Assembly (NCBI RefSeq): GCF_000485595.1
Contig: NW_014577236.1
Span: 240,185-304,184, forward strand
Direction of reading: 5' to 3'
Length of the DNA: 64,000 bases
DNA from: Priapulus caudatus
Taxonomy: Eukaryota > Priapulida > Priapulimorpha > Priapulimorphida > Priapulidae
This document shows positions 16,401 to 64,000 of this stretch, piece by piece. The notes under the pieces are model-generated. The model was given only the letters and a program-made list of their open reading frames with translations. It did not search any database and was not told where the DNA came from. Both the position numbers and the translations under genes were made by a program. How positions within the stretch are numbered: the stretch's first letter is position 1; the number at the start of each line of letters is the position of its first letter.

Positions 16401-18530
16401 GGTGTTCTGCTGATAAATTCATTTGTGCATAGCAAGACGTCTTATACATAAGTCTTCTTTATTCTTGTTTGACTTTCGTAGCCAATTGGAACAAATATAT
16501 CAGCTACACTTTTGCACCCACCTAATCCCTATGCATTGCAGACACATGTGCATTGCAGGTTGGCAGGCAACAATTATGATTAGAAGCGTGCCAGCCATGG
16601 GCTGCCCTCCTGTTTTTCCCTACCCACACGAGCATTCACTGATTCAGCCTTCAGGGTGCTATAGACAGACTGCTTTAGAAAAAATATGATTAAGGAGCGT
16701 AAACCTTGTTCAACAAACATTTGCCTTTGCAATTAAACTGTGCAACTGTAGCCTCACATTCACACAGGTATGGGCTCTAATAATAGCAAAAGCAGTTCAG
16801 TCCTTTGTTAACAGTCAACAAATCAATGTTTAACCCTCCTCTTGAGGGTCAAAAGGTTATCCGACACTTACTCTTCGCATGTCAGCGGAAAGTACATTTC
16901 ATGGTACTTTCAATAAAGCCATGAAAAATGGTAGGTCACCGCTGAAACAAAAATGTTTTTCAATCGCTCCGTTAGACCATGTCCTCAGAAAATGTCTAAA
17001 ATCTGCCCTGTACCCCATTGACCTTTGACCTGTGACCTCCAATTCCGGCTCAGTGATGGCATTTCCTACCATGATGCTATACACAGACTATCACGAGCCT
17101 AGGTCAAGCCGTTTAGATTTGTGCCGCAATTCTGCATTTCCTCCCTATACCTTAAGTTAAGGAGGGAATGTTCCCCCTTCTTTTACACCTCTTGACCTTT
17201 GACCTTTGATCCCCAGCTTCGACATCCCAACTAGTTTTCGGATTACCCCCCTCCCCCCTCCCCCCCTCTCCACGTCCCAAATATCGTGACCGTACGTCGA
17301 GCGGTTAAGATTTGTGCCCAACTGTTGACGGACGCACGAACGCACGGACGGCCGGACGGACGGACGGACAATCATGCAATTCTACAAGCTGCACCTGACT
17401 ATGTCAGATGAGCTAATAAATACACTTTAAACTAATTTTCCATATTTCTACATTCACAACATTTCTTTAGCAAGCCTAAACAGCCTGACAGTAGTACTAT
17501 TGCAATATTAAAGATACATAATACATAAAATCATGTGTTTGAAAATATAGTCCTAGTTGAGTCTTAGTCTTAGTCTTAGTTGAAGTCTATATAGTCTTAG
17601 TTGAAAATAAAATATAGTTTGAAATATGTCTTATCCGTGGCACTTTAGCAAGGTGTGAATTAGCTCTATTACTATAGCCCGCGTACAGTTGCCGCAGGGC
17701 CTGCGGCAACTGTACGCGGGCTATAGTACTAGAGCTAGGTGTGAATATGCTATAAATATACCATAAGCTGGCAATCGGTCAAGTAATACCCCATGACAAT
17801 AAGTGCCCAACAAATTGAGCATGAAATCTATCCAATTCAGTAATAAAATCACGTTATGCATGTTACAATCAGAAAACTGGATGGGAGCTTATTTTAATTT
17901 TTGTTGAAATGAGGGGTGTACCCATTAACATTTCCACCCATCTGCTGGTTAGATAGGTATGTGGTCATTTTACACGGCAGAAAGACAGGGAACATGTAAA
18001 ATGGCACTGCCTGTTCTTGAAGGGTGAGTGCCATATGTTACAAAGTTTATTGGATTAGATGAAAAGGTAGTGGACCCAACATTTTCTATATTGGTGTTAT
18101 CTAAGACATGCCTCATGCATTATTAAACTGTGACTTCTTACTTACCTAGTGCAACTCCATAAGGCACGAACACTATCAATGCACGGTAAAAACTATGTTT
18201 CAAGAGATTTTCCGGTAGCGCTAGCAATGTCAAGTAGCCGAACAATGATCCTAATATCAGCTGACCAGCGAATCGTGTCACATTAAATGGCGGTTTTTCA
18301 TATGAACGAAACTTGCTAACTAAATATGTGACATATTCAGGTCTTTCATTTGCATCATCAACATATTCTGGTATCCTTGATAGATCTCGAAGCCATCCCA
18401 TTCCAAAAACACCGCCCATCGTGCACCACCAAACAAATGCATGTCTGTCACGTCCAAGATATAAATGGTGAAGGCCAAACCAGCCGCCAATTAGCCACAA
18501 TATGTAAGTTGTAAGAACACTTTTTGCCAT
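13417..18530 (-). CDS. DNAJC22: DNAJC22-like (Wurst) multi-pass membrane J-domain protein
   Basis: Complete six-exon gene on the minus strand: 18530-18146, 15841-15745, 14817-14707, 14401-14270, 14077-13945, 13656-13417; 1,098 coding bases, 365 residues (human protein about 341). All codon phases fit. The start MAKSVLTTYILWLIGGWFG, followed by LHHLYLGRD, matches the TM2-type N-terminus of DNAJC22, and exon 2 keeps the VGN segment. Exons 3 and 4 encode the middle membrane helices. The last exon encodes a J domain beginning VLGLERGASEMDV, with the Hsp70-activating HPD in QWHPDRHK. DNAJC22/Wurst proteins couple Hsp70 chaperoning to membrane traffic; Drosophila Wurst works in clathrin-mediated endocytosis. 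Having the J domain at the C-terminus after the membrane helices is characteristic. The start codon lies in a good context (ACCATGGCA). Intron 1 carries a 1-kb repeat copy, a 77-bp palindromic insertion and a MITE; intron 2 carries a 400-bp MITE. Confidence 0.92.
15316..15715. mobile_element. 400-bp MITE in DNAJC22 intron 2
   Basis: Near-perfect terminal inverted repeats: AAGCCCGCGCACACATGAGT and, at the far end, ACTCACGTGTGTGCCGGGCTT as its complement. Subterminal GAGTAATTTTACT and GACGCATGCATC motifs are repeated in both orientations. No coding capacity. Confidence 0.8.
15922..16178 (+). mobile_element. MITE-like element, GGGTTCTC family, copy 2
   Basis: Related to 9945-10232: begins GGAGTTCTTCCCAGGAATTT, ends GGGAGAACCCTG, and shares GACGTATACATCAAGCTGTG with the first copy apart from scattered substitutions. 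It sits in intron 1 of the DNAJC22-like gene. Confidence 0.6.
16355..17416 (-). repeat. 1-kb interspersed repeat, copy 2 (inverted)
   Basis: Same element as 1488-2550 in reverse orientation, ending on the plus strand in GACTATGTCAGATGAGCTAA. It is inside intron 1 of the DNAJC22-like gene. Read in this direction, a hairpin followed by CTAA resembles a Helitron 3' end, but the other end does not begin with TC, so the class is open. Confidence 0.85.
17661..17737. mobile_element. 77-bp palindromic mini-element with 9-bp target duplication (family B)
   Basis: The whole element is one hairpin: left arm TAGCTCTATTACTATAGCCC then GCGTACAGTTGCCGCAGG, right arm its complement, ending CTATAGTACTAGAGCTA. 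GGTGTGAAT flanks it on both sides (17652-17660 and 17738-17746), which is direct evidence of insertion. It lies in intron 1 of the DNAJC22-like gene, and its ends recur in the long foldback at 20349-20927. Confidence 0.85.
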
Positions 18531-19591
18531 GGTGTATGCCTAGTTGATGTCACGTACTGTAGCACAATACAAATGTGTGGCTAAGATATGCCTGTGGTCA
18601 ATGACTCAATGGTAGACATACCATTGCACGTGTTCAACTGCCACATGCACTCTACAGTATGTACGTCCTCTATTCCACACCTACGCTTAGTTGGCTGTGT
18701 TACACGGAAACGATACAAGCCACTCAAGTCAATAACATGTTCATCTCATTTTATGACTGCCACCAGCATCCACCACAGGCTCTCACACCGTCGCACGCAC
18801 CTAGAAACCCGCATCAGAGAACACAGCGTCTGAACGTGCAAGCTGCAGCGACAAGAAACACGAATACTACTGACTAAGGTTCTGCCAAAAAATGAAGCAC
18901 GAGATAAATTATAGATGGGTGGCTACATGTTTTGGAAATTGGATCAAGGATAGTTTGGGACCCCGCAATATGTTTTCACTGCCTGTGCCGTGAAATCGAC
19001 TTGTTTACACTTTTTCTTGAACTGAATAGGCCCTACATCATGTAGATTGTAGGCTAGTTTCAAGCCTTATTTGTCGGTAGACCGTAGAGCTATATTTATA
19101 TAATATATAGAAATATTGGATTCGTATCACACAAGAATGGCAACTTTCTCACGGGACGTTAAACTTATTCATTGTTTTGGCTATCATACGTATAAAATTT
19201 TGCAGTCGCTTTTCTAAAATGAAGAATAACAACAATCACGAGAAAAGCAAGGAGTTCTCAGAACCGATCCTAACGCCACCGCTACGCCATGTAATAGACG
19301 GGTACCTATCTCCTTTACTCCTAACTCCTATCGATTTACACTATGAAGAGAATGATAGAAACGAAGTAGTTCCTATCTACTCCGTACTAGGCTACTATCC
19401 ACGCCCACGGCACGTCTAACCTGATTCTTGTTTTGAGTTTTTCTCTAAAGATTGCTTTAGGTATTGAAAATTTGTAAGCAAGATACTATTGTCACTCACC
19501 AGATTAACCGAAGATAGATAAATATATAAATAAGAATCATATGTTACTTATCTCATTGAAGTAAACTGTAATATATTCACTTTCTGCGTCT
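18531..19591. other. 5' flank of the DNAJC22-like gene
   Basis: About 1 kb between the DNAJC22-like start codon and the tRNA. Apart from the small frame at 19177-19419 I see no exon, CpG island or repeat. The DNAJC22-like promoter should lie just right of 18530; no TATA box is obvious. Confidence 0.4.
19177..19419 (+). CDS. Small open reading frame, unknown
   Basis: An 80-codon open frame; from its second Met (19219) it reads MKNNNNHEKSKEFSEP and ends GYYPRPRHV. Composition is less biased than most random frames here (many Glu, Leu and Pro, few low-complexity runs), but I recognise no family, signal peptide or membrane segment. It lies between the DNAJC22-like gene and the tRNA, with no clear splice sites or poly(A) signal. 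It could be a small protein, an exon of a longer gene or chance. Confidence 0.15.
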   Translation: MAIIRIKFCSRFSKMKNNNNHEKSKEFSEPILTPPLRHVIDGYLSPLLLTPIDLHYEENDRNEVVPIYSVLGYYPRPRHV

Positions 19592-20348: not shown

Positions 20349-20927
20349 TAGCTCGTGAGTAACTTATAGCCGTGCGCGATTCGTCTCCGCAGGGCTATAG
20401 CACATTCTGCCATAGATGTAATCTAAGCAAGATGGTCCAACTGATGCTCGACCAAAAATTTATCCCCAAACGTAAAATGATGCGGGCTTATTTCTAAACA
20501 CTTATCTGTCAACATGGACATCTCACCAATCTTTTTTGAACGCTTCCACAACTTTACACCAGGATTTAATGCTGTTTATTGCCTAAAGTCTAGCAGCTAC
20601 TGTGTTTTTTTTATTTTGATTTTTCAAATGCGGTTGCTCTGCTTATGTGTGCACGCGTGACTCTTCAGTGCCTAAGACTATTGAGGAATAACAGCATAAA
20701 GTTACCTGGCTGTAAAGTTGTGGAAGTGTTCAAAAGATAGGTGAGATTGATCAAGAGGATGATTATAGATAAGTGTTAAAAAGCGCACCGTACATTTAAC
20801 GTATTTGGGGATTAAATTTTTTGGTCACATCAAGTTGTACGCATTGACTTAGATTACATCTGTGGCAGATATGTGCTATATAGCCTCATTGGCACGCGAT
20901 CGCCGCGGGCCTATAGTACTAGAGCTA
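20349..20927. mobile_element. Long foldback element, family B
   Basis: Imperfect inverted repeat of about 580 bp. Left arm landmarks: TAGCTCGTGAGTAACTTATAG, GGGCTATAGCACA, CATAGATGTAATCTAAGCAA. The right arm holds their complements: TTGACTTAGATTACATCTGTG, TGTGCTATATAGCC, CTATAGTACTAGAGCTA. Flanks AGTAATTGAGTA and AGTAATAAGTA may be a decayed target duplication. Termini match the 77-bp palindrome at 17661-17737. Confidence 0.7.
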
Positions 20928-21444: not shown

Positions 21445-22981
21445 CGGCGTCTGGAACCGGTCGCCTGCTCCAGGCTCAGCATCGGCTAGCTCCACTCACA
21501 CAGTGATCTTGCGACGTGCGTACCAGTGTTGAGGTCTCGAGACCGCTGTGATCCGTTGGCTCGGCCGGTCTCGAGGACCGTTTTCCTTGCGTCTCGGTCT
21601 CGGTCTCGGCCTCGGAGTGCAATGACTCGGACTCGGACTCGGACTGCGAGCCTTCCGGACTCGAGGACAATGGGTCGAGGACCGCGCTCGAGGCCAACTA
21701 CATAATCATAGTAGTCATAGATGCTCGTTGACATGTGACCTTTCAGTGCACCTGGGTTGCACGCTGGGTTAACGGCTAGACACTGACAGGTATTGTTTTA
21801 ACTTTACACGAACCCGTAATAAAGATTCGATGTTTTGCCTTGCACTGACATTGTGAAAATTGTGCATTTTGTATTACAAATGTGAATTATAAGGCAGAAA
21901 GGTGTGAAATGATGTCATGAAACCTATGTGCGAGTACTAGTAGGTACTACTATATGACTCTACCACTTTGAAGGTAGTAGGTACTAGGTGGTAGGTACTT
22001 AAGTACTAGCACTCTCTATCTTGGTTCAACAAGCCGCGTCATTCGCATAAAACAGAAATGGATCCGTTACTTTGACACGTTTCGTATGACTCTTGTCTCT
22101 GTGTTTTCGGCTGACTATACACTTTCGAATGTCTATCGATGCACGGTTGCGCTTTTTTCCCAGATCAATCTCATAAGCCAAGTCGGATGATTGCCACTAA
22201 TCTACATTCTACATACAATAGAAATGTTCGTAGCGTAAACAATGCATAATGCACAATGCCGCTAGACGTGCGCGCGCGGCTATACTAGCATGCGTTTTCG
22301 CACCAAGAAAAACCGCATGCTAATCGCGATGGAAATACCGGGTAGTTATTTTCCTAAGTCGACACAAATATGTGCGTCCCAAAAGTGTCGACTTATGCAA
22401 GTTTTATGTACTTTTCTTATTTATGACAACAAGTGACAGATCCGGGGACAGGAAACCCCCCCCCCATTTTTGAACAAACACATACATAGAAGTGAGTGGC
22501 CTTGTCGGTCTGTGCCCCTTTTTTTATCAAACTGGACTCGACTCGGACTCGGACTCGGACTCGGGTGTGTGGACTCGGACTCGGGTGGCGCGGACTCGGA
22601 CTCGGACTCGGACTCGGGGGTGCGGACTCGGGACTCGGACTCGGACTCGGGGGGTGCGCGACTCGACTACAACACTGGTGCGTACACGCATGATTGCGCA
22701 GCAGGACACTCTGCTGGTTGACGTAAATATACAAGATATGCACTGCTGCTGTCTATCCTTTCATCCGTCCTTTCTCGCGCTCTCTCTCTCTCTTTCACAC
22801 ACACATGCGCACAGCTCTCTCTCCTCTCTCTTCTCTTTCTCTCTCTCACACACACACACACCTCTAGCTCTGGATCTGGATCGGGATAGTTTTTTGCGTA
22901 GCCCACGATTACATGGATAATAACGCAGGCACCGCCATTTTGAGTGGTCATCCGAGCCACGGGAGATTCACAGTCTCCAAG

Positions 22982-26586: not shown

Positions 26587-29500
26587 GGCCAATAGGCATT
26601 TTTGCTCTCGTGCGGTTCAAACTGCAAAAAAGTATGAAGCAGGACAGTGTATTCATGGTTATCGAGTAGAGAAGGTATTGTATTTCTGTGTGTTTTTATG
26701 CATTTGTTTAAAATAACGTCAAGAGCTAATGATACCTATACCTAGTTATTACTAGCAGGGCTTGAAACTAATGCTTGCCGAATTGCCCGAGGTTACTAGA
26801 TATCTGTAGCGGCTAGTAGCATGTCTTGGCAGACCATCCTTGTTGGCGAGTGTTGGTAATACTTGAATCCGTAGCTACTTTTTGTGCAACTGTTTTCATC
26901 TGGTTTAAGTATAAAATTTGTGTGCACAAATGTAAATTTCATCACTAGATTTCAGCAGGCTTCCTAATATTGATTTAAATTAGGTCCCATTACCAAAGTA
27001 GCAAGACTTGGAATGCATCTCAGATAGTCTAAAATAAAAATTGTTCTGGGGAGCCCACCCCCCTTCCCAAGACCCACGTGATCATACTCACCTCCTGTGC
27101 ACAGCTAACTGCTTGCCGTGGTGCTAGGTTAGTTTCAAGCCGTACTAATAGATATTATTAGCTATTAATAACGTGCAAAGACGTATTCACATGGTATTTG
27201 TAATATTTGTGTTATGTTTAAACAGTGTGGCAATTAACGTACATTGATGAGATTAGAACTGATATCTATGTTGACCATCTATTCAATTAATAAATAAATC
27301 ATAAGTGACATTGATAATGAGATATGTGTACTTATTTCAGGTTGAGCCTATTCCAGAACTGTACTTAACGGCTGTGAAATTAGAGCACGAGGGAACAGCT
27401 GCACAGCACATTCACATTGCCCGAGAAGACCGTAACAATGTTTTTAGGTGAAACTAATCTAACCTTTTCATTTTCTTGTGTGGTTCACACTCTTCAATAC
27501 TGTTTATCTGAATCCATAGTATCAGGATACCTCATAGAGAGTAATAATTTATAGTACAGTGAAGAGACAATAATTTTACTATAATTTTACATAATTTTAA
27601 TAATATTATGTTATTATATACTTGTGCTCAATAGTCATCTTGACCTTCCAGCTGTTAATGAAACATCTAGCTGGCATCTGTATTTATTAAATAAATATTA
27701 AAAAGCTCTATAAACATGCTAGATGTTAAATACGTGATGTCAAATTTTCTTGCAGTGTCTCGTCTGTCTAATTATAAAATGATAAGTTTGTTTGTCTTCC
27801 CTTTTCTGATTATTATTAATCTTTTTGCAAGATATCATATTATCTGGAGTGTATAATATAGATCTATATTATACACTCCTAATATTATCCACCCTATTTT
27901 GGTGGTGTCTGATGCATTTATTGTTGTATTACAGTGTTGGGTTAAGAACCACTCCACTAGACAGCACAGGTGTGCCCCACATTTTAGAACACACGACATT
28001 ATGTGGGTCTGAAAAGTTTCCATGCAGAGATCCCTTCTTTAAAATGTTGACCCGGTCTCTTTCAACATTTATGAATGCATTTACTGGTAGGTTCTAGTAT
28101 ATCCTAAATAAATATCTTGCTAATGTCTGTAAAAATTTACTCGCATGGTAACTTTTGTACTTTATCTTATATTATTACTTTATATTTACCTAACATTTAT
28201 TCTAGTTAAATTCAAAAAAGAATATCTTGCCTAAAATACAGAGCATGTGAGCTTCTAAATAGTAATGTAAGGTAGTTAATGATCATCAGAAAACATGTAT
28301 CGAAATTCTGAACTATTCAGTGTATTATTTTTAGCTAGTGATTGGACCATGTACCCATTTTCAACCCAGAATGCTCAGGACTTCGAAAATTTGCTGTCAG
28401 TTTACCTAGATGCAGTCTTCTATCCACAACTCAGAGAACTTGACTTTATGTAAGTTCACTTGAGGTCATGGTACTATTAATATGAAATCTACGTGTCAGT
28501 ATGTATATATCAGTTAGATACATCATATTAAAGGGACAGTAGCCTCTAGGATTTTACTGCATACAACTGTACTTACTGTGTAACAAATCGTCTATACCCA
28601 CATGTATTTATTACCAGATACCTAATTTAATTGTTATAATTATTTACACATCAACGCTACGATATTTGAACGGCGCCATGACACCCGCGACCGTGCTGCC
28701 ACCCCGAAAAAGTTGCGTATTTGACAATTTATTTTGCAGGTTACAGACCGAGGGCTAATCACAAAAGTGCAATTATATTTATACCTAAATGCTATTTAAC
28801 CGAACGATATTCATTTTAGGGCAAATTTATCCATATTATAACTGAAACTATATGTCGTTTATAAGATATTACAATTCTTTTGTTTTTAAATGAATAAATA
28901 AGAAACACCCTCGTCTGTAGCCCTTGGCTGGAAAGTGGTTTTGTGCAACTTATCAGATCGTGCACTTTGAGTGGCGCCACCGTCGTTGTAATCAAACTGT
29001 AGTCGTTAGTTTTAAAACATTTTTTAATAATATTTCTAATGGTGATTGAACCATGAAACTTTTTATGTAGCATAATTATAACCTAAATTAGCTGAAAATA
29101 ACCCTAGAACCTAGAGTAAACTCTCCCTTTAAGCAAATGTTTGAATGATTTGATTTGAATGCAGGCAAGAAGGGTGGAGACTGGAGCATCAAGTTGTGAA
29201 TGACCATGGCTCACCTATAGTTTTTAAAGGAGTTGTCTTCAATGAGATGAAAGGAGCATTTGTAAGCATGGAACCTTGGATATCCTAATTAACATTATGC
29301 TTATCTTTTGTTTTTCTTAATATATGCTATTTATAACTAGTGACACATTAGTAAGGATTAGTAAGTACATGAAATTCGTTTGGATTGAATGACATTTCTT
29401 TTAATCGAATTATTTCTAATTATTAGGCAAGTCCAGAACAAGTGTATGCACAGCACCTACAAAACAGTCTTTATCCTAGTCACACGTACTCACATGTCAG

Positions 29501-32500: not shown

Positions 32501-35500
32501 CATTCCCTCCTTAACTTGAGGTATAGGGAGGAAATGCAGAATTGCGGCACAAATCTAAACGGCTCGACCTATGCTCATGATAGTCGGTGTATAGCATCAT
32601 GGTAGGAAAAGCCATCACTGTGGCGAAATTGGAGGTCACAGGTCAAAGGTCAATGGGGCACAGGGCAGATTTTAGACATTTTCTGAGGACATGGTCTGAC
32701 GGAGCGATTGGAAAACTTTTTTGTTTCAGCGGTGACCTACCATCTTTATGGCTTTATTGAAAGGACCATGAAATGTATTTTCTGCTGACATGCGAAGAGT
32801 AAGTGTCGGATAACCTTTTGACCCTCAAGAGGAGGGTTAAATATTGATTTGTTGAGTGTTAACAAAGGACTGAACTGCTTTTGCTATTATTAGAGCCCAT
32901 ACCTGTGTGAATGTGAGGCTACAGTTGCACAGTTTAATTGCAAAGGCAAATGTTTGTTGAACAAGGTCAACAATGCTCCTTAAATCATATTATTTTCTAA
33001 AGCAGTCTGTCTATAGCACCCTGAAGGCTGAATCAGTGAATGCTCGCGTGGGTAGGCAAAAACACGGGGCAGCCCATGGCTGGCACTATTCTAATCATAA
33101 TTGTTGCCTGCCAACCTGCAGTGCACATGTGATTATCGCCTGCCTGAATATACTTACTTGGATTTTAGCCTGTAGGATTTCAGCAACTCCCCAGGGAGCT
33201 AGTTAGGGTATCTCAAGAAGGGCGATGCCATCTTTGATTATTGATTACACTTGCACGCGCCATCTCGCGGCAACTATAGTCCTAGTTTAAATTAGATTTT
33301 ATTCTCATGTAACTTTGTTAAACGAATAAATAATATCTAGTACCATATAATATATATTTACTTTTCATCTTGAATCTTAACATGTATCATGTAGCTATGG
33401 CCGTGCGTATCCATTTACCAGTTATGCAAACATAAGCTGTTACCATATAAATATTAGAGACACTATATATTATTATTTCTATGGCTGTTACACTCAGGGG
33501 CATAGGAACGAAGTATTATTGAGGGGGCAGTAAAAGGCATCATCGCTGGGTTTTTACATTTTTTTATATAATTAAGAGAGAGAGAAAGTCTAAGATAAAG
33601 AGAGAGAGAGAGCGTAGTAAATTGAGACGGGGACAGGAAAACGGTGATACGGTGTGTATGCGAGCAGGAAACGGGGTACAATTAGGTCGTGCGAGATGGT
33701 GTGCAAGGGGATGGGAGGTGGGAGGCAAGGGGAGGGAGATGGGAGGTAAGGGGGTGGAAGTGAGAGGCAAGAGGAGTGAAGTGGGAGGCAGGGGGAGAGA
33801 GGTGAGAGGCAGGAGGGAGGGAGGTGGGATGCAGTGGGGAGGGAGGTGGGAGAGAAGGACCCCCCGCCCCCTCTAATTAAACTTGGAGATCCATGCTCAT
33901 ATGTTGAAATCTTTTATGTCAACGTCAATGTCATTCATTAACTTGTATTTGAATTGTTATTATTGTTCTTGTTATTATAATTAGCCCATAGAGATTAGGT
34001 GGGTGCGAAAGTGTAGCTGATATTTCTTCGAATTGGCTACGAAAGTCAAACAAGACTAAAGAAGACTTATGTATAAGACGTCTTGCTATGCACAAATGAA
34101 TTTATCAGCAGCACACCAGACACCAGATGAGCCCTGTCGCACTGCGGCACTTGTTATGTTAATAGTATGGTGGTGAGTTGATTTAATTAGTGTGGGTGGA
34201 GGTTCCTGATTTTTTTAAACTAGAAGTCTTTTCTCATTTATGCACAGGCCTGGAGTTAGCAGAGAAGCAGAATGAGCCTGAAGACCTTTCTTGTCTGCCA
34301 ACACTAAGGATTTCCGACATCGAGAAGAGAGGAGAGTTTATACAAGTCTCACATAGCACGCCATGTGTGTATTAATCAATAGATCTCAATGGATGTGGTT
34401 ATACCTATGTACACAGTGATGCAAAGCTGCAAGTTGGCAAATCGCACTTAATTTTCTTCATAACATTCTAACATTCTTAAAATTCTACTAACCAGAAATG
34501 AGGAAGAAAAAATACATGTAATATTCTCATGGTCATGGTAACATGCAGTTTGGCACATTAGCTATGATATTTATATCTGATGAATAATTGTTGGCGTTAC
34601 AAATTTATTATATGTAAGACATTTATGCTATGCATTATTTGTTGCAGTAAATGTACCAGTACAGCTATGTGAGCAGCCCACTAATGGAGTGACGTACTTC
34701 AAAGCAGTTGCCGATGCTAGCAATCTTGATACAGCACTGTTGCCATATTTGCCAATATTCTGCAATGTTCTGGCTCAGTAGGTCATATTCTATGAGAAAA
34801 TGCAAAAGCTGATCATGTTTTCTGCATATCAGCACTTTACTAACTAGCACATTTATGCTAATTGTTGATTTTTGTATTGTGTGCACCAATAGTAAAATCG
34901 TTGTCTTTAATTCAAGAATGGGAGCGGGTCAGATGGATTTCCGGGAGTTGAGCCAGGAGATACAACTGAAAACTGGTGGGATGTCTGCGGCCAGCCTTGT
35001 AACGAACAGTCACACTGACCCTCTTAGCTATGAGCAGGTGAGTATTTATATTGTGTTCTATATTGCAGTTTTGTTATTATAATTAGTATTATAATTGGTG
35101 AATAATAGTTAGTAGTATTAATAATATTGTGTTTCATGCTGCTATCATATATATGTATAACATGAAACATACATTACAGGTGCTGTTGATATTATTGATC
35201 ATGTCCATGTACATTGCCAGAACTGTATACCATTACAATTGATTAATGAAGTGAAAGGGTGTTTATAATGCTACATCTTACTGTGCCATGCTATTGTATC
35301 AATGTGCATATTTTTATACAAAATTAATGTAACTAGAGTACGTTCAATCAGATTTTCTTCCACATTTTAGGGCATCCTATTCTCCTCATACTGCCTTGAC
35401 AGAAACACAAGTGATATGTTTTCCATTTGGTCGGAAATCTTTAATGGGTTAGTGACATTGGTGGTAATTTATGTACTTTTCTTATCGGTGATACAAACAA

Positions 35501-41045: not shown

Positions 41046-41707
41046 GTCAGCTCAGTGAAGTTAGCTCCCGGTTCCCAGTTCCCAGTTCTTTATTCGAATA
41101 AGGAACTAATAACTAGGCAAAGCAGTTACCAGTTCCCACTTCCCAGTTCCTTATTCGAATAAGGAACTAGTAACTAGGCAAAGCAGTTACCAGTTCCCAG
41201 TTCACAGTTCCTTTTTCGAATAAGGAACTAGTAACTAGGCAAAGCAGTTACCAGTTCCCAGTTCAAAATGCAACATTGAATTGGGAACTGGTAACTAGGC
41301 AAAATAGTTACTAGTTACTTATTCGGCCAAATTAACCCTTTGGCACACATTTATTTAATCAGTTACCAGTTTGATACCCAGGTACTTATTCAGTTACCAT
41401 GCAGTTCGAATTACCAGTTCGAATAAATGTGTGCCAAAGGGTTAATTTGGCCGAATAAGTAACTAGTAACTATTTTGCCTAGTTACTATATCCCAATTCA
41501 ATGTTGCATTTTGAACTGGGAACTGATAACTGCTTTGCCTAGTTACTAGTTCCTTATTCGAATAAATAACTGGAAACTGGGAACTGGTAACTGATTTGCC
41601 TAGTTACTAGTTCCTTATTCGAATAAGGAACTGGTAACTGCTTTGCCTAGTTATTATAGTTCCTTATTCGAATAAGGAACTGGGAACTGGGAGATAACTT
41701 CACTGAC
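41046..41707. mobile_element. 662-bp foldback element with 8-bp target duplication
   Basis: Both arms are tandem runs of a unit containing AGTTCCTTATTCGAATAAGG and AACTAGGCAAAGCAGTTACC, in opposite orientation left and right of about 41400. Ends GTCAGCTCAGTGAAGTTA and TAACTTCACTGAC are inverted, and CCTATTAA flanks both sides (41038-41045, 41708-41715). An 8-bp duplication with CAGTG-type ends is compatible with the hAT superfamily. Confidence 0.8.
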
Positions 41708-52360: not shown

Positions 52361-52943
52361 CAGGAGTAGATAATAGGAAAGGAGTGTGACTTCAATAAAC
52401 AAGGAAAATTCGTTATTTACTAGCCTTAGAATACCTATGATTTACTATGCGTAACTCAACCAACTTGAGCTCAAATCGTACACAGTACATTCGCCTAGCA
52501 TCGTGCGAAATCGTTTCCTCGTATACACCCGCAATCCGGAGATACAGACTAAAACGTACGACACGATTTTCCATTATGTTGCCAGCAAACTGAATGTATA
52601 AACCGCCTAACTTAAAACAAAAAGCAGCTACTAGCGAGCCAAACCGCATCGCCGAGGGAGCAAGAGTGCGCAAGAGCTGCCTTTTGCTTCAAGTTAGGTG
52701 GTTTATACATTCAGTTTGCTGGCAACATAATGGAAAATCGTGTCCTACGTTTTAGTCTGTATCTCCGGATTGCGGGTGTATACGATGAAACGATTTTGCA
52801 CGATGCTAGGCGAATGTACTGTGCACGATTTGAGCTCAAGTTGGTTGAGTTACGCATAGTAACTCGTAGGTATTCTAAGGCTAGTAAATGACAAATTTCC
52901 CTTGTTTATTGAAGTCACACTCCTTCCCTATTATCTACTTCTG
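52361..52943. mobile_element. Long foldback element, family A, with 8-bp target duplication
   Basis: The left arm starts CAGGAGTAGATAATAGGAAA; the right arm ends TTCCCTATTATCTACTTCTG. The arms are about 255 bp each, around a ~75-bp GC-richer centre (52616-52690). ATGTTCAT flanks it exactly (52353-52360, 52944-52951). In about 195 bases compared by eye the arms differ at eight positions. Each arm carries an outward 60-plus-codon frame, but seven of the eight differences alter the codon product or the stop, so purifying selection is not supported. Confidence 0.85.
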
Positions 52944-55361: not shown

Positions 55362-56656
55362 ACTCTACCCGGATTAGGTTTAGGTTAGGGCTAGGATCGT
55401 GGGTTATGGTTACGGATGGGGTGATGATGATACTGATTTACGTATCAGGGTCCCAAATTGGGCTTGAGGATGAGCTAACATGTTTATGGTAGCACAGATA
55501 CACCACCGATTTTCGAGCAGTCGATGATCCAGCATCTATTTTAGTCCGGTCAAAATTACAAAAGGGCACTTGAAATTTACACGACTGCCAGGCCAGTTTA
55601 ATACGCGACCACAGGTGGCGTTGTATGTAGCACATGCTAGACTTGTTTACAGTAAATATTTTGGTCATGACCTGACGTTGATTGATACCTGTACCTGTAC
55701 ATTTAATATTTGTTTAATTTAAGTTTCTAGCCATCCATGATGCTTTAGAGACATGGGAGGAGTATAATTAGTGGGTCCAGATTGTATTGTTGACTATACT
55801 ATAATATATACTACATGACCTTTGTTGATTCGGCAAGAATTTGGAACCAAGAGTGCCGAAAAGTCGGTGGTATACCTGTACTTGTAGTACATGTACCATT
55901 ATGACTCTCGAGTACATTGTATGCACACAGGTTACAGTGAGTAGTCTCCCGTTCAATGTACATCTAGCATCACAACAGCAAATGTAAACATGATGAGAAT
56001 GTGTGATGCGTAAATTGCGTCGTGATGAAAGATATGGCTCTGTAATTAGTAATTAGTCCGAAGAAATCATTTTCGTTGAGCTAGCACTTTTATCGCTATT
56101 ACTTACAGCTTACAAGTATCTGTTACATGCCACGTTCAACCACATGATTAAGTTCATGGCTTGGTTAGATTCATTGGCGGATGCTGGAATGGGTAAAAGG
56201 GGGAGTGGGTACTTGGGTCCTGTCACAAATTTGAGTGCTTCAGATGACTTCACTGGCCTCCAGCGAATACTAAATTTGGGGGAGGGGGAAACAAGTAAGG
56301 TGGAGGTTTAAAATGTTTAAATAACTACTTTGGATTTTTCCCCACTTTTTCTGATATTGATTCTTGGATGGAAGCAGGGAACCTGATAGCGCCCTAGATC
56401 TGCCATTGGATAGAGCATGGGAATTTGGTACACCTTGATATACTTGTTATAATTCTCTCACCTCTGTTATTTACAAATTGCAACTCTGTGAATTTGGTAC
56501 ATGATGTTATGTCATGCATTATTACACGCAAGCTCATACCTGTACAAAATTATCACCCATAATTTCCATCCTAATGACAATGTAATGTTGACAGTACTCA
56601 TTATGTTTCTTATTATTAATTGGAAGGTCACTATTAATATTCACTGTACATAGTAT

Positions 56657-56692
56657 CAAGAGCGTATTAAGAAGCTTCTTAATACGCTCTTG
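56657..56692. mobile_element. Palindromic mini-element, family A
   Basis: A perfect 36-bp palindrome with left arm CAAGAGCGTATTAAGAAG. ATAGTAT flanks both sides (56650-56656, 56693-56699). Confidence 0.85.
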
Positions 56693-56715
56693 ATAGTATA
56701 CTGGCATGATAGGAT

Positions 56716-56761
56716 CAGGAGTGAATAATAGAGATATAATAATCTCTATTATTCACTCCTG
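56716..56761. mobile_element. Palindromic mini-element, family A
   Basis: 46-bp hairpin, left arm CAGGAGTGAATAATAGAGAT, loop ATAATA. ATAGGAT flanks both sides (56709-56715, 56762-56768). Confidence 0.85.
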
Positions 56762-59330
56762 ATAGGATGTACAATAATTTCTGTTAAATGCAGTAATACA
56801 GCACATTACAAGGTAAGGCATTCTATAAAAACCATTGATAATGAGAAAATCTGTAACATGAATCATGTATTCCTATTGACTTCTATTATAAAATTGGATA
56901 TATGGTTTCTTATGGAAAATTATTTACATAACTAATGAAGTAGAAGAACAAAAATTTTATGAATGCAAAAAAACAAGATTTTTGGTATATATTGATTATT
57001 CAATGATGTACCAAGGTACCATGCTAAGACTGGGAGGGAGGAGTTTGTAATACGAATTACTGGGAGAGAGCGGGAGGAGTACTGCTGGCTAGAGGATACC
57101 AGCTGGCTTGCTTTTGTTATCAATATTATTGTAGGGCTTGGGTGTTTTAGACTCTTACCTGCAGGCCAAAGATTATCTAATGTCGGCTGCCGATGGGGAC
57201 TCCCTTTGTACAGCTCCTTGAAGCAGCTGTGATCTGCTCTTGAACATGTATCTATGTAACATATATACCTGTGGCATATACTGGATGCAGGGAGATGGAT
57301 GATTGAAGGAACAGGTGCATTTTATAAACATTGCACGTATATATAGCAAACTGCCTATTAGGGTAACAGTATGTTACGTGTCAGAGTTGATGCCTCCTGT
57401 GTTGGCAGCTGGCTGCATATTTATTACATTTAAATAAGGTTACTGTATAGCAATCGAGCATGTACCACTTTTTGAGTAAAAAATTTCTACCCATTCTTTT
57501 GAAAAATTACGTAAGAGCGAATTTTCGTTTCGTATCACAAGTAAATGGCCATCATTTTCAAATTACGTATGTGCAAATTTATGCACTCCCGTTGTTGTAA
57601 CGTGAGGTATTACTGTACTGGAGTAACATTGTCGTGCTACTGCAGCCAGTGTGGCCATTAAAAATACATTCAAAGCGCTAGCTATAAGCCTATAATATCT
57701 CTGCAATTTTTGCATTTATAGTACAGTTTGGCCGCAGAGTTCTGCTGCTATTATTTGCTATTATTGAGCAACAAGTTTTGGTAGCATTCTGACCATATTG
57801 GTTTTTAATATTTATAATGTGGCTTGTAAGGCAACCCGCAGTGAAATCTGACACAAGTCTATTAAAAGTTAGTATACATATTAAAATGTGTGCTGACATT
57901 TTCATAAGGTTGCTATACAATGGCACTAGTTTCAAGCTCATTGCAGCTGACTATGTCTTTGCCAATAACTTTTTTACTCGGTCAAATTTATGATTTGCTA
58001 GTTTAGCTAGCTGATCTAGGTGATATTCTTAAATTTTAAAATGAGCTCCCTGCTGGTGTCTTTATTGACTCTGCGGAAATGCCCAAAACGATTGGCCACA
58101 AATGCTTACTTATAAATTACAGTGGGGTTGTTGTAGCTTGTGATATTCAAAAAGTAAAAATTCCTTTCTGTTCATCATTGTAATTAGTTGCAGCACGGTT
58201 CATGCACACATGTATCGGGTTCCTCTTCAAGGTAGTGTAATAATGCCTACTATCGGCGACTCCCTTTTGCTGCAGGCAATTCGCTAGTCTAGTGGAAGAA
58301 GGGTAAGCTTTCTTTCTATAGATGCAACATCTGCAATGCTGGTATGAACAGGCAGCGAAAGTTACTCTTTTGTGGTGCAACAATTTCCCTGCTATGCTTG
58401 CTTTTATCAGTAATTCTTTTCTAAGATAACATCATTCAGGTTATAGATTTTGTGGAATTTTCATAATTTCGTCATGCAAAAAATTATCAGTAGTCAAATG
58501 GATGAAAGAAAATATGTTGCTTAGCCCACGTTTGTAGCTACTAACTATATAAGATTAGCTTTATGCTAAGCATAAAATATGGTATGTTTCGTCAAGCAGT
58601 TGTTAATTAATACAAGATAGGTTAGTTAAAGTATAGAAGTGCCTTACTGCCTGGTGTATACATATGGCGATCTTATTTAAATATGCATTGATGGAGGAAA
58701 TTCGAGCGCGTCATAAATCAAGCAGAATTTTTTGGAAATAATACGATTAGCTTATGTTTTGAAAGCATTGTTGCATAATTTAGGAATACTATGAGAACAA
58801 CTATCCTGGAAAACGAAAAGGTCTGAGGTGGTCGTTGCTATATTTTTTCTGCCATCTAACATTATTACCCACGTTGTTTTGCTCTCGTTCCTGCCTGGGG
58901 TTTCGTTTGGGAAAAGGGCGTTTTTTTGTTTAGAAATATCAGCTGTGAACGCCCGAATGTGACAGATCCACAGTCCAGTGGCGAGTGAAAATACGCCGAG
59001 CTAATATTTGTCTAACAGCTCCGTCTGTCTTATCGCGGCCACAGGTCGGCATCTTTGTCTGTTCATTCATCGGACAAAACTAAGCGAGCGATTTGTGTCG
59101 TGTCGTGTGGGGTTGCTTCAGCACAGCCAATTCATTTTATCTGTGTCAGGCTTTTTTTCTCAGCAAGTTTTTTTTTGCTTTAAGTATCCTTCCTTGTGAA
59201 GAGAGGATCACCCCAGTTCACTAGCCTCTGAACCACCCAACTAAACTATAATGCTTGGTATAGAATATACTGTGCATATTTTGAAGGGTGGATCAATATT
59301 TGATATATATATTGTATATATACGTTATAT

Positions 59331-59362
59331 CAAGAGCTAATAATAGGTATTATTAGCTCTTG
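59331..59362. mobile_element. Palindromic mini-element, family A
   Basis: 32-bp hairpin, left arm CAAGAGCTAATAATA, two-base loop GG. Flanks GTTATAT and GTTATAA differ in one base. Confidence 0.75.
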
Positions 59363-59742
59363 GTTATAATATATATATATATATATAGCGAGTCAGCCAG
59401 ACCTCCGCAAATACGAGCGGAAATTGTGGTAAACTGACTTGTGTGTTTTAAAATTAGCTGAGGTGGTCCACCCAGCTAGCTATCTATAATATTTTAATGC
59501 CCCTGTTTGCTGTGAATTGCTCTGCACGCGCGGCGTCGGCCATCGGAAATTCTCGGCTGCGTTCTGCTGGCAATCCGCGTGCAGCAACGCAGACCGAGTG
59601 CACATCATATAGATTAGAACGCGCGTTGTTGAGGTATACGCCCTGCCTTGAATGTAAATATGGGCTTTGGGTGTGGTTGCAACTAGGCGTTGTGGAGACA
59701 ATGAATGAACTTTGTCCCTGTGTGTACACACTGTACGCAGTA

Positions 59743-59773
<31 letters not shown>

Positions 59774-60237
59774 CTCATAACCTGTGTTATGGAGTATGTA
59801 TGTATATTGCTATCTTAGTTTGAACGCTGACCAATGACTGATAGGAGTGATCGATGAACTGTGAAGTTTTGTGTACAGAAAAACCTACTAGTGCCCCGCC
59901 CTAGCTCGTTTATTACTGCTGTTGGTCATAGATCGTAAACGTTCGCACACGCACAGAATATTTTTTCATGCGTTCATGTTATATGTACTGCACAATTTAT
60001 ATGCAGTGAGTCTATGGAATTTGACTATGAGTATTTCTTATTCAGTTTGCTGATGTCTTACATTTCTCCCAAAGATGTTGTTTATACGATAACATAAGTT
60101 TCAGGCAGGAAGAAGTTGGTAAATTGTACCACACGTGAATGGTTGGTGCCTGTACATTTGTTGTTGTTTTTTAAACAAAATATTGAGTAGTACGTTTGCA
60201 ATGCAAGATTTCGTGTTCGTGCTTGGGTGTGTGCGGG

Positions 60238-60294
<57 letters not shown>

Positions 60295-61255
60295 TGCGTG
60301 TAAATTGCGACAAATTCATCACGTATTTTGATGTTATACGCAAACAAGACCTAGATTGCACATTATCAACGCTGACTGAATGACCCCAGTGATTAACGCG
60401 TGCGTTCGCAGCGCATCCTTTCACTTTAGACTGCTTCTGGCTACGGACATGCCAGCTCGCTGCCCGTGGAGTTTCCTTGTGGCTTGTTGGCAGTCTAACG
60501 CGTGATCTCCGTACGGGCGTCTGCTCTCGAGGCGCTCGCTGGCTTCGGCTTGAATTCAGGGTGGGGGCTCCACTTAACACCAGCGCGTAGCGTCTGGCAG
60601 GTTGCGTGCGCTCGGCAGATGGTTGGCTGTGTGCGCCGCCCGCCGCTTGGCAGTCCCGTCCCCCCTTCGCTGGCATCTGCGTGCTTCCAAGCGTTAGATG
60701 AACGCGCGCACGTGGGTCAACACAGGCGCCTTCTTTGTAGGGCGAATAGCACGCAGGCGATAGCATTCGCCGGCTCGTGGCCGTTGGAGATACCGGCAAG
60801 TGTCACATGAAATACGAGATTCTCGGCTGCTCCCGGGGAAGGTCTATTTGGCGTCGTTCGCCGTGCCCGTTCGTTTGTAAAATCTACACGTGTGGCAGGA
60901 GATCACGCTTTGACGAATTAACCGACTAGTGAAGAATCGATGAGCCAGTATGTACACATGTGGCGGTGCTTGCACGTTTTTTTGTCTTTGAATTGCGTGT
61001 GTGACATTTCGAAGCAACATTTAAATCCAGCGTAAAATGCTATTAACAACTTATCATGTTGTAAATGTATAACATATGATACAGTGTAAATACTGAGTAT
61101 TGATACATAATGTCAGCTTGCGTGTTTTTCTTGCAGGTAATGCTTCTTTAATCGCAATATTAGCCTGGTACCATTTATATGTACTATAGTTATTAGTTAA
61201 ATATACATACTATAGTATATTCTGGTATATAGTATAGTATGATATGGTATGGTAT

Positions 61256-61347
61256 CAGGAGTGTATAATATAGATTCTATCTAAGATGTATATATTATAC
61301 TGTAGTCTGTATATAACAATGTAATATAGATATGTTATACATTCCTG
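61256..61347. mobile_element. Palindromic mini-element, family A, decayed
   Basis: 92 bp. It starts CAGGAGTGTATAATATAGAT and ends ATGTTATACATTCCTG; flanks are ATGGTAT and GTGGTAT. The arms have several mismatches, so this copy is older. It sits among TATGG-type pentamer repeats (61225-61420). Confidence 0.7.
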
Positions 61348-62566
61348 GTGGTATCGTATGATATGGTATGGTATGGCATGGCATGGCATAGCATAGCTTA
61401 GCATAGTGTAGAAGTTATGTTGCGTAGTACTAGATATAATAAACTGTGATAAACCGTGAGAGCAAGGGTAACCTTGCTTACGGGGCTGCGTCATATATTT
61501 TCTATGGGGTTTGTTGGTGTTCTGAACACAAATTAAACAAATTATTAATATCATATAGCGCCAAGAAATGGTCAGACATCGAAAGACCGTGTGCATTTGC
61601 GTTAGTCTCGTAGCCCGATTATACTACATAGCATAGCTAGTACTGCGTAAATTGTTTCGAGATTCTGTTATCACTCAGTGATTCTGCGAGAATTAATTCT
61701 ATTTTAAGAATTCAGGTAACTGTTTGTAGGTCTAGGATTGTCTGTATATCACGACCACACGAAGCTGTCTACGGCAATTGTTATTGGTCTCTAATACCCA
61801 AATTTATTATTATAGGTTTAGGAACAAATGAATGTTGCCAGCGATGCAACAATCAATTCCTTTATCGTAAACGCGGATAATGTGCCTACTGACTGATTGA
61901 GAATGAATGCTTTCCCATTCTCGTTGCTCTATTTTTCTCATTCTTACTCTGTTATGCGTAAGTTGGACAGCCAATCACAGCTAATGCAGGCGAGAAATAT
62001 GACTTATTTGTAAACTCGTGCCACAACAATTTGTAGAGGGGGGTGGCTGTTAAGTATAACGAATTTTTTAGATCGGATATAATAAAATTGTGTATTCTAA
62101 GCTCGAGTGAACCTTTTAAGATCGTAAAATTGAAAGGCGTAACCGACAGTATTACATAATCTGTCATGTGTTAAATTATCTCCTAAATGCCTAGATGTAT
62201 AACCGCCGGATATTGGAAAAATAGATATTTGACTCGGGTGGTCGCATATATTCCACGCCTGTTAAAGCACTCATTTAGGATTTCTTATATCTACTTTGTA
62301 TGGGAGTGATCACGAGGGGGGGGACGCTTGGTTTTGAAATGAAGTAAGTCTTGCGTGTTTTGACCTTTCCGGTATGGCGTCAAATAGAGACGCGTAGTGA
62401 AATTTCTCTGAAATATTCGTGCATGCTAATGCTACGTTTTCTCCATGAACGGTCTTACATCGAAAGACCATAATTGTGCATTGAAGCTATAGTCTCGCAG
62501 CCTGTCTGCATGGCTACTGATACGTGTGATTTCTAGCTGCTATTGTCACGATAAACAAGATATCAC

Positions 62567-62603
62567 CAGGAGTAGATAATAGAGTCTCTATTATCTACTC
62601 CTG
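62567..62603. mobile_element. Palindromic mini-element, family A
   Basis: 37-bp hairpin, left arm CAGGAGTAGATAATAGAG, complement ending CTACTCCTG. ATATCAC flanks both sides (62560-62566, 62604-62610). Confidence 0.85.
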
Positions 62604-62663
62604 ATATCACTGTGCGTGGCATTTTACGCGTCACACTATAGTATAGATTTATAATACATATAA

Positions 62664-62695
<32 letters not shown>

Positions 62696-63104
62696 AATAC
62701 ATAATAAGTGTGTGTGTGCGTGAGTGCGTGCGTGTGTGGTATCTAGATTGACTCCATAAGTCGTTGATTGTATCAACCAGTTACCTTTGTGGCACTTGTT
62801 CGTGGCGGAAGCTATAGGGAGCCAGTTTGTCAGGCACTTATAGATTCTTAGTGTATACATTCCTTATCAGCTCTGAATAGCGAGTTCTCAAGTTGTATTT
62901 ATTCGTAGGGTCACCGGAACCATTATTGCTCTAGTATATGCGCTATTTTAGGCATATGAAATATCAGGTCATCTAATTTTACGATGGGCATTATCAGTTT
63001 TATCACCTAGTTGATTTACGCATGATAGTGATGATATGTTAGTACAATAGTTTCGTAGTTCACGCGCTCGTCAGAATGACACTTGCCAGTGTTATTGTTA
63101 AGAT

Positions 63105-63169
63105 CAAGAGCTAATAATAGCAAGATAATACCTAGGTATATTAAAGGTACACTGTATTATTAGCTCTTG
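63105..63169. mobile_element. Palindromic mini-element, family A
   Basis: 65 bp with arms CAAGAGCTAATAATAG and TATTATTAGCTCTTG around an AT-rich centre. TTAAGAT (or GTTAAGAT) flanks both sides (63098-63104, 63170-63176). Confidence 0.8.
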
Positions 63170-63564
63170 TTAAGATTATAGTGTAAAGATTATAATACGT
63201 TCCGCGGCTGTACTTCTAAAGACTGAGCGGCTGTACTGTCACTGTGGACTTCTCCCTCCCGGATCTGCCCCCATCAGCAAAAAACACTTACACATTTTTT
63301 ACGTCTTGCCTAATCATCGTCTTATCTAGAATTCACTGCTGAAGAGAGCGTGGCTGGTGAGAAGATCGCTGACTTGAGATGGTTGTTGGGCGGCTGCCAG
63401 GTCCCATATACGTGCTCACAATGCAGCCACATCCTCCCTCTAGCTCTGTTAACATGGTGAACCCTGTTTTGCATGGTTCTGGATCCGCCCTGATATAGAG
63501 ATAGATATTGATACATAGTGTAGAAATGAGGATGTGAGGTCTCTACATTTCCATACTATATTAT

Positions 63565-63631
63565 CAGGAGTTAATGAGACAAACACCCTCAACATCCTCA
63601 ACATCAATTAAGTTTGTCTCATTAACTCCTG
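63565..63631. mobile_element. Palindromic mini-element, family A
   Basis: 67 bp, left arm CAGGAGTTAATGAGACAAAC, complementary right arm, loop containing a CAACATCCT repeat. ATATTAT flanks both sides, and the right copy is shared with the next element. Confidence 0.85.
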
Positions 63632-63638
63632 ATATTAT

Positions 63639-63682
63639 CAGGAGTAGATATAATAGGGAAAATTCCCTATTATCTACTCCTG
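63639..63682. mobile_element. Palindromic mini-element, family A, adjacent copy
   Basis: 44-bp hairpin starting CAGGAGTAGATATAATAGGG. ATATTAT flanks it (63632-63638, 63683-63689). It is inserted directly beside 63565-63631, giving three ATATTAT copies alternating with two elements. Confidence 0.85.
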
Positions 63683-64000
63683 ATATTATCCAAATAATAA
63701 TATGGTGTGTAAATATCGGGCACTTTGTAACACTCGATACACAGTCATGGTGGCAACGTTTCCTGCGTTAGGAACATAGCACGGGCACGTTTTTCTGCGG
63801 TTTTTTTTATCACTTCCTTCCCGCTCGCCTAGTATTTAGCCTATACGGTTCAGGGGCAGTCAGTTGTGAGTTGCATAGCGGCTGATGACTGAGGCGCGTA
63901 GGTATTTCATACGCGTGCATCATCGTTGCGCTGTACAGTAGTGTGCCAGTGGGCGGAGGGTGATGGGGAACTTCAGTTGAAATGTTATTAGACACACATG

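Follow-up and report, generated by a model that had tools for sequence, protein, structure and literature searches.

We describe a family of very short palindromic elements in the genome of the priapulid Priapulus caudatus, based on a 64,000-nucleotide stretch of contig NW_014577236.1 (positions 240,185 to 304,184, the whole of which is called the window) and on searches of the host assembly. The elements are most probably non-autonomous DNA transposons of which only the two terminal inverted repeats (TIRs) are left, that is, TIR-only miniature inverted-repeat transposable elements (MITEs), which a transposase moves in trans. Target-site duplications (TSDs), a target preference, the presence of an identical tiny unit at unrelated loci, a nested insertion and longer relatives with similar ends are established. 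As TIR transposons that have almost no sequence separating their ends, they take a known kind to a new extreme.

Nine such palindromes, 32–92 bp long, had been reported in a preliminary description of the window, and all of them are present:

27844..27881: tiny palindromic element of 38 bp with mutated ends (CTGGAG..CTCCTA); exact TSD ATATTAT
56657..56692: tiny palindromic element of 36 bp, a perfect palindrome of the CAAGAGCGT subfamily; exact TSD ATAGTAT
56716..56761: tiny palindromic element of 46 bp with perfect 20-bp arms; exact TSD ATAGGAT
59331..59362: tiny palindromic element of 32 bp from the CAAGAGCTAATAATA subfamily; TSD GTTATAT/GTTATAA, matching at 6 of 7 bases
61256..61347: degenerate member of 92 bp; TSD ATGGTAT/GTGGTAT, matching at 6 of 7 bases, within a GGTAT-repeat flank
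62567..62603: tiny palindromic element of 37 bp with perfect 18-bp arms; exact TSD ATATCAC
63105..63169: member of 65 bp with perfect 15-bp arms and a 35-nt middle; exact TSD TTAAGAT
63565..63631: member of 67 bp with perfect 20-bp arms and a 27-nt middle; exact TSD ATATTAT
63639..63682: member of 44 bp in tandem with 63565..63631, in the order TSD-element-TSD-element-TSD with every TSD ATATTAT; relatives occur genome-wide

The direct repeats described around these elements also hold: seven of the nine have an exact 7-bp TSD, and the remaining two (59331 and 61256) match at six of seven bases. The TSD of 61256–61347 is weak evidence, because its flank is a GGTAT-repeat tract. The statement that the elements comprise only two arms applies to the copies of 32–46 bp, but not to those at 63105 and 63565, which carry 35 and 27 nt between the arms. 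Similarly, the description of CAGGAG or CAAGAG ends with complementary arms fails at 27844, where the ends are mutated, and at 61256, where the palindrome is degenerate and the arms pair at 16 of 24 positions; BLAST finds an arm sequence common to these two elements. The window background at the same spacings is 0.075% for an exact 7-mer match and 0.35% for a match at six of seven bases. When the right flanks of the nine elements are permuted, a mean of 1.4 exact TSDs is obtained versus 7 observed, and a fraction of 5e-5 of the permutations reaches 7. A window scan allowing variable ends reduces 633 candidate pairs to 10 TSD-flanked spans (the nine elements and one composite), with 0.25 matches per offset in shifted controls.

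The host assembly (385,217,808 bases in 2952 contigs) contains 2180 places where CAGGAGT is followed by 4–40 bases and ACTCCTG (18–54 bp in total), versus 7 for the reversed pattern; the exact element pattern scanned in viral contigs and in prokaryote genomes occurs 0 and 0 times. Of the 2180 places 50 were listed, and we inspected the sequence around the first 44 of these; an exact TSD of 7 or 8 bp is present in 35 copies: 29 of 7 bp and 6 of 8 bp, three of the latter lying in TA repeats. The two elements of locus L034 in this sample are one duplicated insertion with near-identical flanks. Permutation of the right flanks among the 44 copies, a control that retains the strong target preference, gives 2.3 exact TSDs on average and never more than 9 in 20000 trials, versus the 35 observed. 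Elements flanked by two direct copies of ATATTAT are found at 305 places in the assembly (162 and 143 by strand), versus 4 places for one inverted arrangement, ATATTAT..ATAATAT. The earlier claim of mobile insertions rather than chance hairpins is thus supported by TSDs that lie far above chance genome-wide. Of the features expected of a MITE or other TIR transposon, three are observed: inverted ends common to the copies, a TSD, and a dispersed multi-copy unit of one sequence.

The preferred target is ATNNNAT: the 29 exact 7-bp TSDs have A at position 1 in 25 cases, T at position 2 in all 29, A at position 6 in 28 and T at position 7 in 27. The 8-bp TSDs start and finish with AT in 8 of 8 cases, counted in a 58-entry set in which two entries are composite spans and some places appear more than once. 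A different delimitation, with a 3-bp TSD around a longer ATCAGG..CCTGAT element, was ruled out, as the TSDs TTAACAA, ATCACTT and GTATAAT also duplicate the outer bases. A fixed-position sample of 200 kb from 20 contigs contains 7 tiny members with exact TSDs, which extrapolates to approximately 13500 copies in the assembly (95% Poisson range about 5400–27800).

That the tiny unit moves as such is indicated by a 40-bp perfect palindrome found without a single difference at 10 loci, with an exact TSD at all ten. The ten TSDs comprise 9 distinct strings (7 when reverse complements are merged), and no pair of loci has both 15-bp outer flanks more than 53% identical. The loci therefore represent separate insertions, since the TSD strings differ and the flanks are unrelated, and recurrence of the identical 40-mer with exact TSDs among unrelated flanks argues that the short palindrome itself is the mobile unit. 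In the CAGGAGTAGATAATAGGG subfamily (at most three mismatches per arm, 30–60 bp) exact TSDs accompany 36 of 41 copies. To make up this set, 20 further stretches were picked, all from BLAST hits and nearly all from hits to a query part containing an ATATTAT TSD; the TSD rate of the set is therefore biased upward, and the identity of the unit is unaffected. A 37-bp relative of the 36-bp element at 56657–56692 is found on another contig (L058) with the TSD GTGTAAT. At locus L011 a CAGGAG element with the TSD ATAATAT is nested in the loop of a CAAGAG element with the outer TSD ATATTAT. Removal of the nested insert leaves a paired element, the sole evidence resembling an empty site.

CAGGAG followed by 0–12 bases and CTCCTG is found at 229 places in the assembly versus 33 for the reversed pattern; among the 50 of these 229 that were listed, 20 are exactly 24 bp long, and any other length is represented by at most five. 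The 30 listed places shorter than 24 bp are known as pattern matches alone, and many of them may be due to chance. Exact 7-bp TSDs are present at four of the 20 listed 24-bp copies: one is C1:114631 (TTAACAA), and the other three were located by coordinates in the listed part of the ATATTAT matches, which is also the range covered by the TSD check of the remaining 16. Among seven of the listed 24-bp places compared by sequence, four (C1:114631, C4:97405, C14:294604 and C14:758340) are identical. The proposal that the elements approach a minimal transposable unit is strengthened both by these four TSD-bearing 24-bp copies and by the 40-mer at ten unrelated loci.

Copies repeatedly form tandem chains of element-TSD-element-TSD, in which one TSD is common to adjoining copies: at 63565–63682 in the window and at loci L043, L046 and L050. 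The chains may reflect reuse of the duplicated target.

Two longer relatives of the tiny elements, of which the preliminary description makes no mention, lie inside the window:

26720..27167: longer relative of 448 bp with ends CAAGAGCTAATGATA../TAATAGCTAATAATA.., the right end mutated; exact 7-bp TSD ATAACGT
52361..52943: longer relative of 583 bp with 279-nt arms that are 94% complementary and an end of the same kind; 8-bp TSD ATGTTCAT

Searching the host genome with the 583-bp element yields 101 match rows from the 40 candidates scored out of 891. Twelve copies of this type were fetched, and both ends could be placed in ten, giving lengths of 488–751 bp. Six of the twelve have an exact TSD of 7 or 8 bp, one has a 10-bp match within TA repeats (L075), three match at six of seven bases (L079, L083, L086), and two (L078 and L085, with poorly matched left ends) have no TSD. 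Neither of the two open reading frames of the 583-bp copy in the window matches a Pfam family.

The existence of such long foldback relatives lends some plausibility to shrinkage in situ, in which long elements would have made a TSD on insertion and their middles would have disappeared afterwards, by cleavage or slippage at the cruciform tip, so that the short palindromes never moved as such. The variable palindrome centres also fit this account: around the fixed arms of the 41 CAGGAGTAGATAATAGGG-subfamily copies, the centre is AATT in 13, T in 3, ATT in 3, AAT in 3, and others in the rest. Yet independent shrinkage does not readily leave one 40-mer, identical in every base, at 10 loci whose flanks are unrelated. 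A scan up to 3 kb of 264 kb (the 200-kb sample and the window) for elements that exceed 130 bp, keep intact CARGAG/CTCYTG ends and carry an exact TSD finds none. With one end mismatch allowed and the limit raised to 5 kb, the 583-bp copy alone is recovered, the 448-bp copy having more end mutations. The fourth base differs as well, most long copies having CAGAAG and most tiny ones CAGGAG. We therefore regard shrinkage in situ as unlikely. A tiny element at L065 (8519–8581) has an expanded AAT microsatellite as its middle, as if the hairpin loop had seeded repeat growth.

A further explanation is one-ended fold-back, in which the free 3′ strand of a single end snaps back and is copied, and the palindrome is remade at each insertion. 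It would account for the variable centres and for arms that agree within elements while 23 arm types (positions 7–14) occur among 55 TSD-flanked entries, one composite included. Over 15 positions, the arms of ten window elements differ by a mean of 0.7 within elements versus 4.0 between elements, a contrast that also speaks for TIR-only MITEs, and arm permutation at positions 7–15 in the same ten gives a fraction of 1e-5; 36 of the 55 entries have no mismatch between their arms in the first 16 positions or the half-length. Under this explanation, however, the ten identical 40-mers would need the same snap-back point every time, and changes confined to one arm would not be expected, whereas in the 41 copies of the CAGGAGTAGATAATAGGG subfamily the reference is departed from in one arm 17 times and in both arms 19 times. 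One-ended fold-back appears slightly less probable still than shrinkage. Chance hairpins adjoining chance repeats in AT-rich DNA, for which only the few copies in TA or GGTAT repeats could speak, are refuted by the counts of 2180 versus 7, 305 versus 4 and 35 versus 2.3, and we give them practically no credence.

Several observations nevertheless weigh against TIR-only MITEs or against parts of their proposed history. Three of the 44 sampled copies match at only six of seven bases (L015, L040, L043), and six have no clear TSD: L017, L008 and L041 (6 of 8), L037 and the second element of L038 (4 of 7), and L039 (5 of 7). No true empty allele was seen, and no second haplotype of 62300–63800 was found in the assembly. 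The joined flanks of the 58 TSD entries, compared with the fetched loci, gave no clean empty site among 14 spanning matches: nine are to the own locus and five to other loci, two of these to AT-rich sequence at 80–81% and three resembling other family copies. The ends of the 583-bp relatives are mostly CAGAAGTAGATAATAGGGAAGGAGTG, with CAGAAG, whereas most of the 41 tiny CAGGAGTAGATAATAGGG-subfamily copies have CAGGAG; plain deletion within the long copies observed therefore does not give most of the tiny ones. Departures in one arm and in both arms occur at similar frequency, and arm correction is therefore not demonstrated. Template-switch correction of quasipalindromes would yield matched changes in both arms, as described in the part of the source available (PMC7202029). 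We make no claim of arm correction, since inherited subfamilies too give both-arm departures. Finally, no autonomous element with CARGAG-type ends was found in the part of the genome examined; the only relatives seen there measure 448–751 bp and contain no recognised gene.

As TIR-only MITEs, the elements would depend on a transposase supplied in trans by an autonomous element. The enzyme would recognise an end of approximately 12–20 bp starting with CARGAGY, excise or copy the tiny unit, and insert it preferably at ATNNNAT with a 7-bp stagger or at ATNNNNAT with an 8-bp stagger, repair of the gaps giving the TSDs. The tiny units may have arisen by internal deletion of longer elements, and their palindromes may be kept by template-switch correction of quasipalindromes, by a need for two matching ends, or by both. 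It is also conceivable, although we hold this only tentatively, that the palindrome is the working part: the substrate would be an extruded cruciform or a single-strand hairpin, in which pairing sets both ends side by side, and the transposase would read folded DNA. We propose this because straight DNA of 24–40 bp is too stiff to join its ends. Selection would then act on pairing, whatever the sequence of the arms, and the occurrence of 23 arm types whose arms nevertheless match would be explained.

Among the systems compared, the nearest match in TSD and target appears to be Galileo, a member of the P superfamily from Drosophila. The portions of the Galileo reports available give TSDs of 7 bp, sometimes 8, with the consensus GTATTAC or GTAGTAC and a palindromic AT-rich target (PMC4168063, PMC2775673); the priapulid elements likewise have TSDs of 7–8 bp and a palindromic AT-rich target, here ATA(A/T)TAT. 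Some Galileo copies consist of two inverted repeats only, according to the same portions, but the two-TIR copy described there measures 9021 bp. P transposase cuts with a 17-nt stagger, as stated in the accessible part of PMC7776569, and such a stagger leaves no duplex in elements shorter than 34 bp; copies of 24–32 bp with exact TSDs therefore speak against P chemistry of exactly that kind. Of the features expected from the P superfamily, the TSD length and the palindromic AT-rich target are present, and the length needed for two 17-nt staggered cuts is not reached by the copies of 24–32 bp. The P-type RNase H domain (PF21787) has 64 matches in the host genome and none in 14 control genomes. 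These 64 places, C1414:70730-71137 among them, carry P-type transposase-like genes, which may be host genes or transposons; some have long open frames (827, 787 and 716 aa). The one P-type gene of the 64 that was examined (C1414) has no CARGAG-type end pair with a TSD in its surroundings, which comprise 1780 bp on the side of the contig end and 1801 bp on the opposite side. We therefore class the elements as TIR-only MITEs, without assigning them to a superfamily, that behave most like Galileo in target and TSD.

MITEs are usually about 100–600 bp long. The priapulid elements resemble them in having no recognised coding sequence, matching inverted ends, a TSD, a high copy number and longer relatives with similar ends, but the sampled copies are mostly 24–67 bp and hold little or nothing beyond the two ends. 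hAT targets, in which the second TSD base is T and the last but one is A, would also fit. However, hAT TSDs are normally 8 bp, whereas the 35 exact TSDs comprise 29 of 7 bp and 6 of 8 bp, and the hAT terminus is YARNG, which CAGGA/CAAGA does not fit; hAT MITEs are set apart here by TSD length and this general terminus. Tandem arrays are shared with the coral CMITEs, which are approximately 100 bp long according to the available text (PMC2872659). Units that are themselves palindromes are also reported among MITE-like repeats of Anopheles gambiae, in 6 of 32 clusters, and palindromic repeats of this kind are cited there for C. elegans, in the part of the source available; unlike the tiny units, the Anopheles set has a total length of 430–1678 nt (PMC3212995). 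Palindromic transposons this short did not turn up among the papers listed in full-text searches of partial coverage, which is weak evidence of absence.

The surroundings of the elements include genes and other repeats. A TM2-domain exon lies on the minus strand at 18141–18539, with relatives that include proteins named DNAJC22, and the window also holds a DnaJ exon and a PreP-like exon. An ankyrin open reading frame, compared as a marker of the host, has no matches at E 0.001. At 17661–17737 a near-perfect 77-bp palindrome of unrelated sequence has the 9-bp direct repeat GGTGTGAAT on both sides, and its end recurs at 20904–20927; this would be a second palindromic insertion family, perhaps of Mutator type, a guess from TSD length. 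Locus L073 carries two 39-bp palindromes (6381–6419 and 7228–7266, approximately 850 bp apart) of the form TAGGGTCCC..GGGACCCTA with 8-bp repeats CACACGAC; they are probably one duplicated segment, and possibly a third tiny palindromic type. A weaker case is the imperfect 40-bp palindrome at 33444–33483 with the 8-bp repeat GCTGTTAC on both sides. The 1154-bp element at 21524–22677 has ends CAGTGTTG..CAACACTG and the 8-bp TSD GTGCGTAC, and is hAT-like by its ends and TSD length. A minisatellite at 41071–41691 has 61-bp units laid out as a large inverted repeat around TTCGAA.

If units of 24–40 bp move as such, all that the transposase needs in cis fits into approximately 12–20 bp per end with almost no spacer. 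The tiny units would then limit models of end recognition and end pairing, because bending of DNA so short is not plausible; how two ends 24–40 bp apart come to be paired by an enzyme is the question they pose. Repeat annotation that leaves out anything shorter than about 80 bp, which we take to be common practice, would miss such mobile DNA. The family also provides a natural library, at the scale of a genome, for the study of how perfect palindromes are made and kept.

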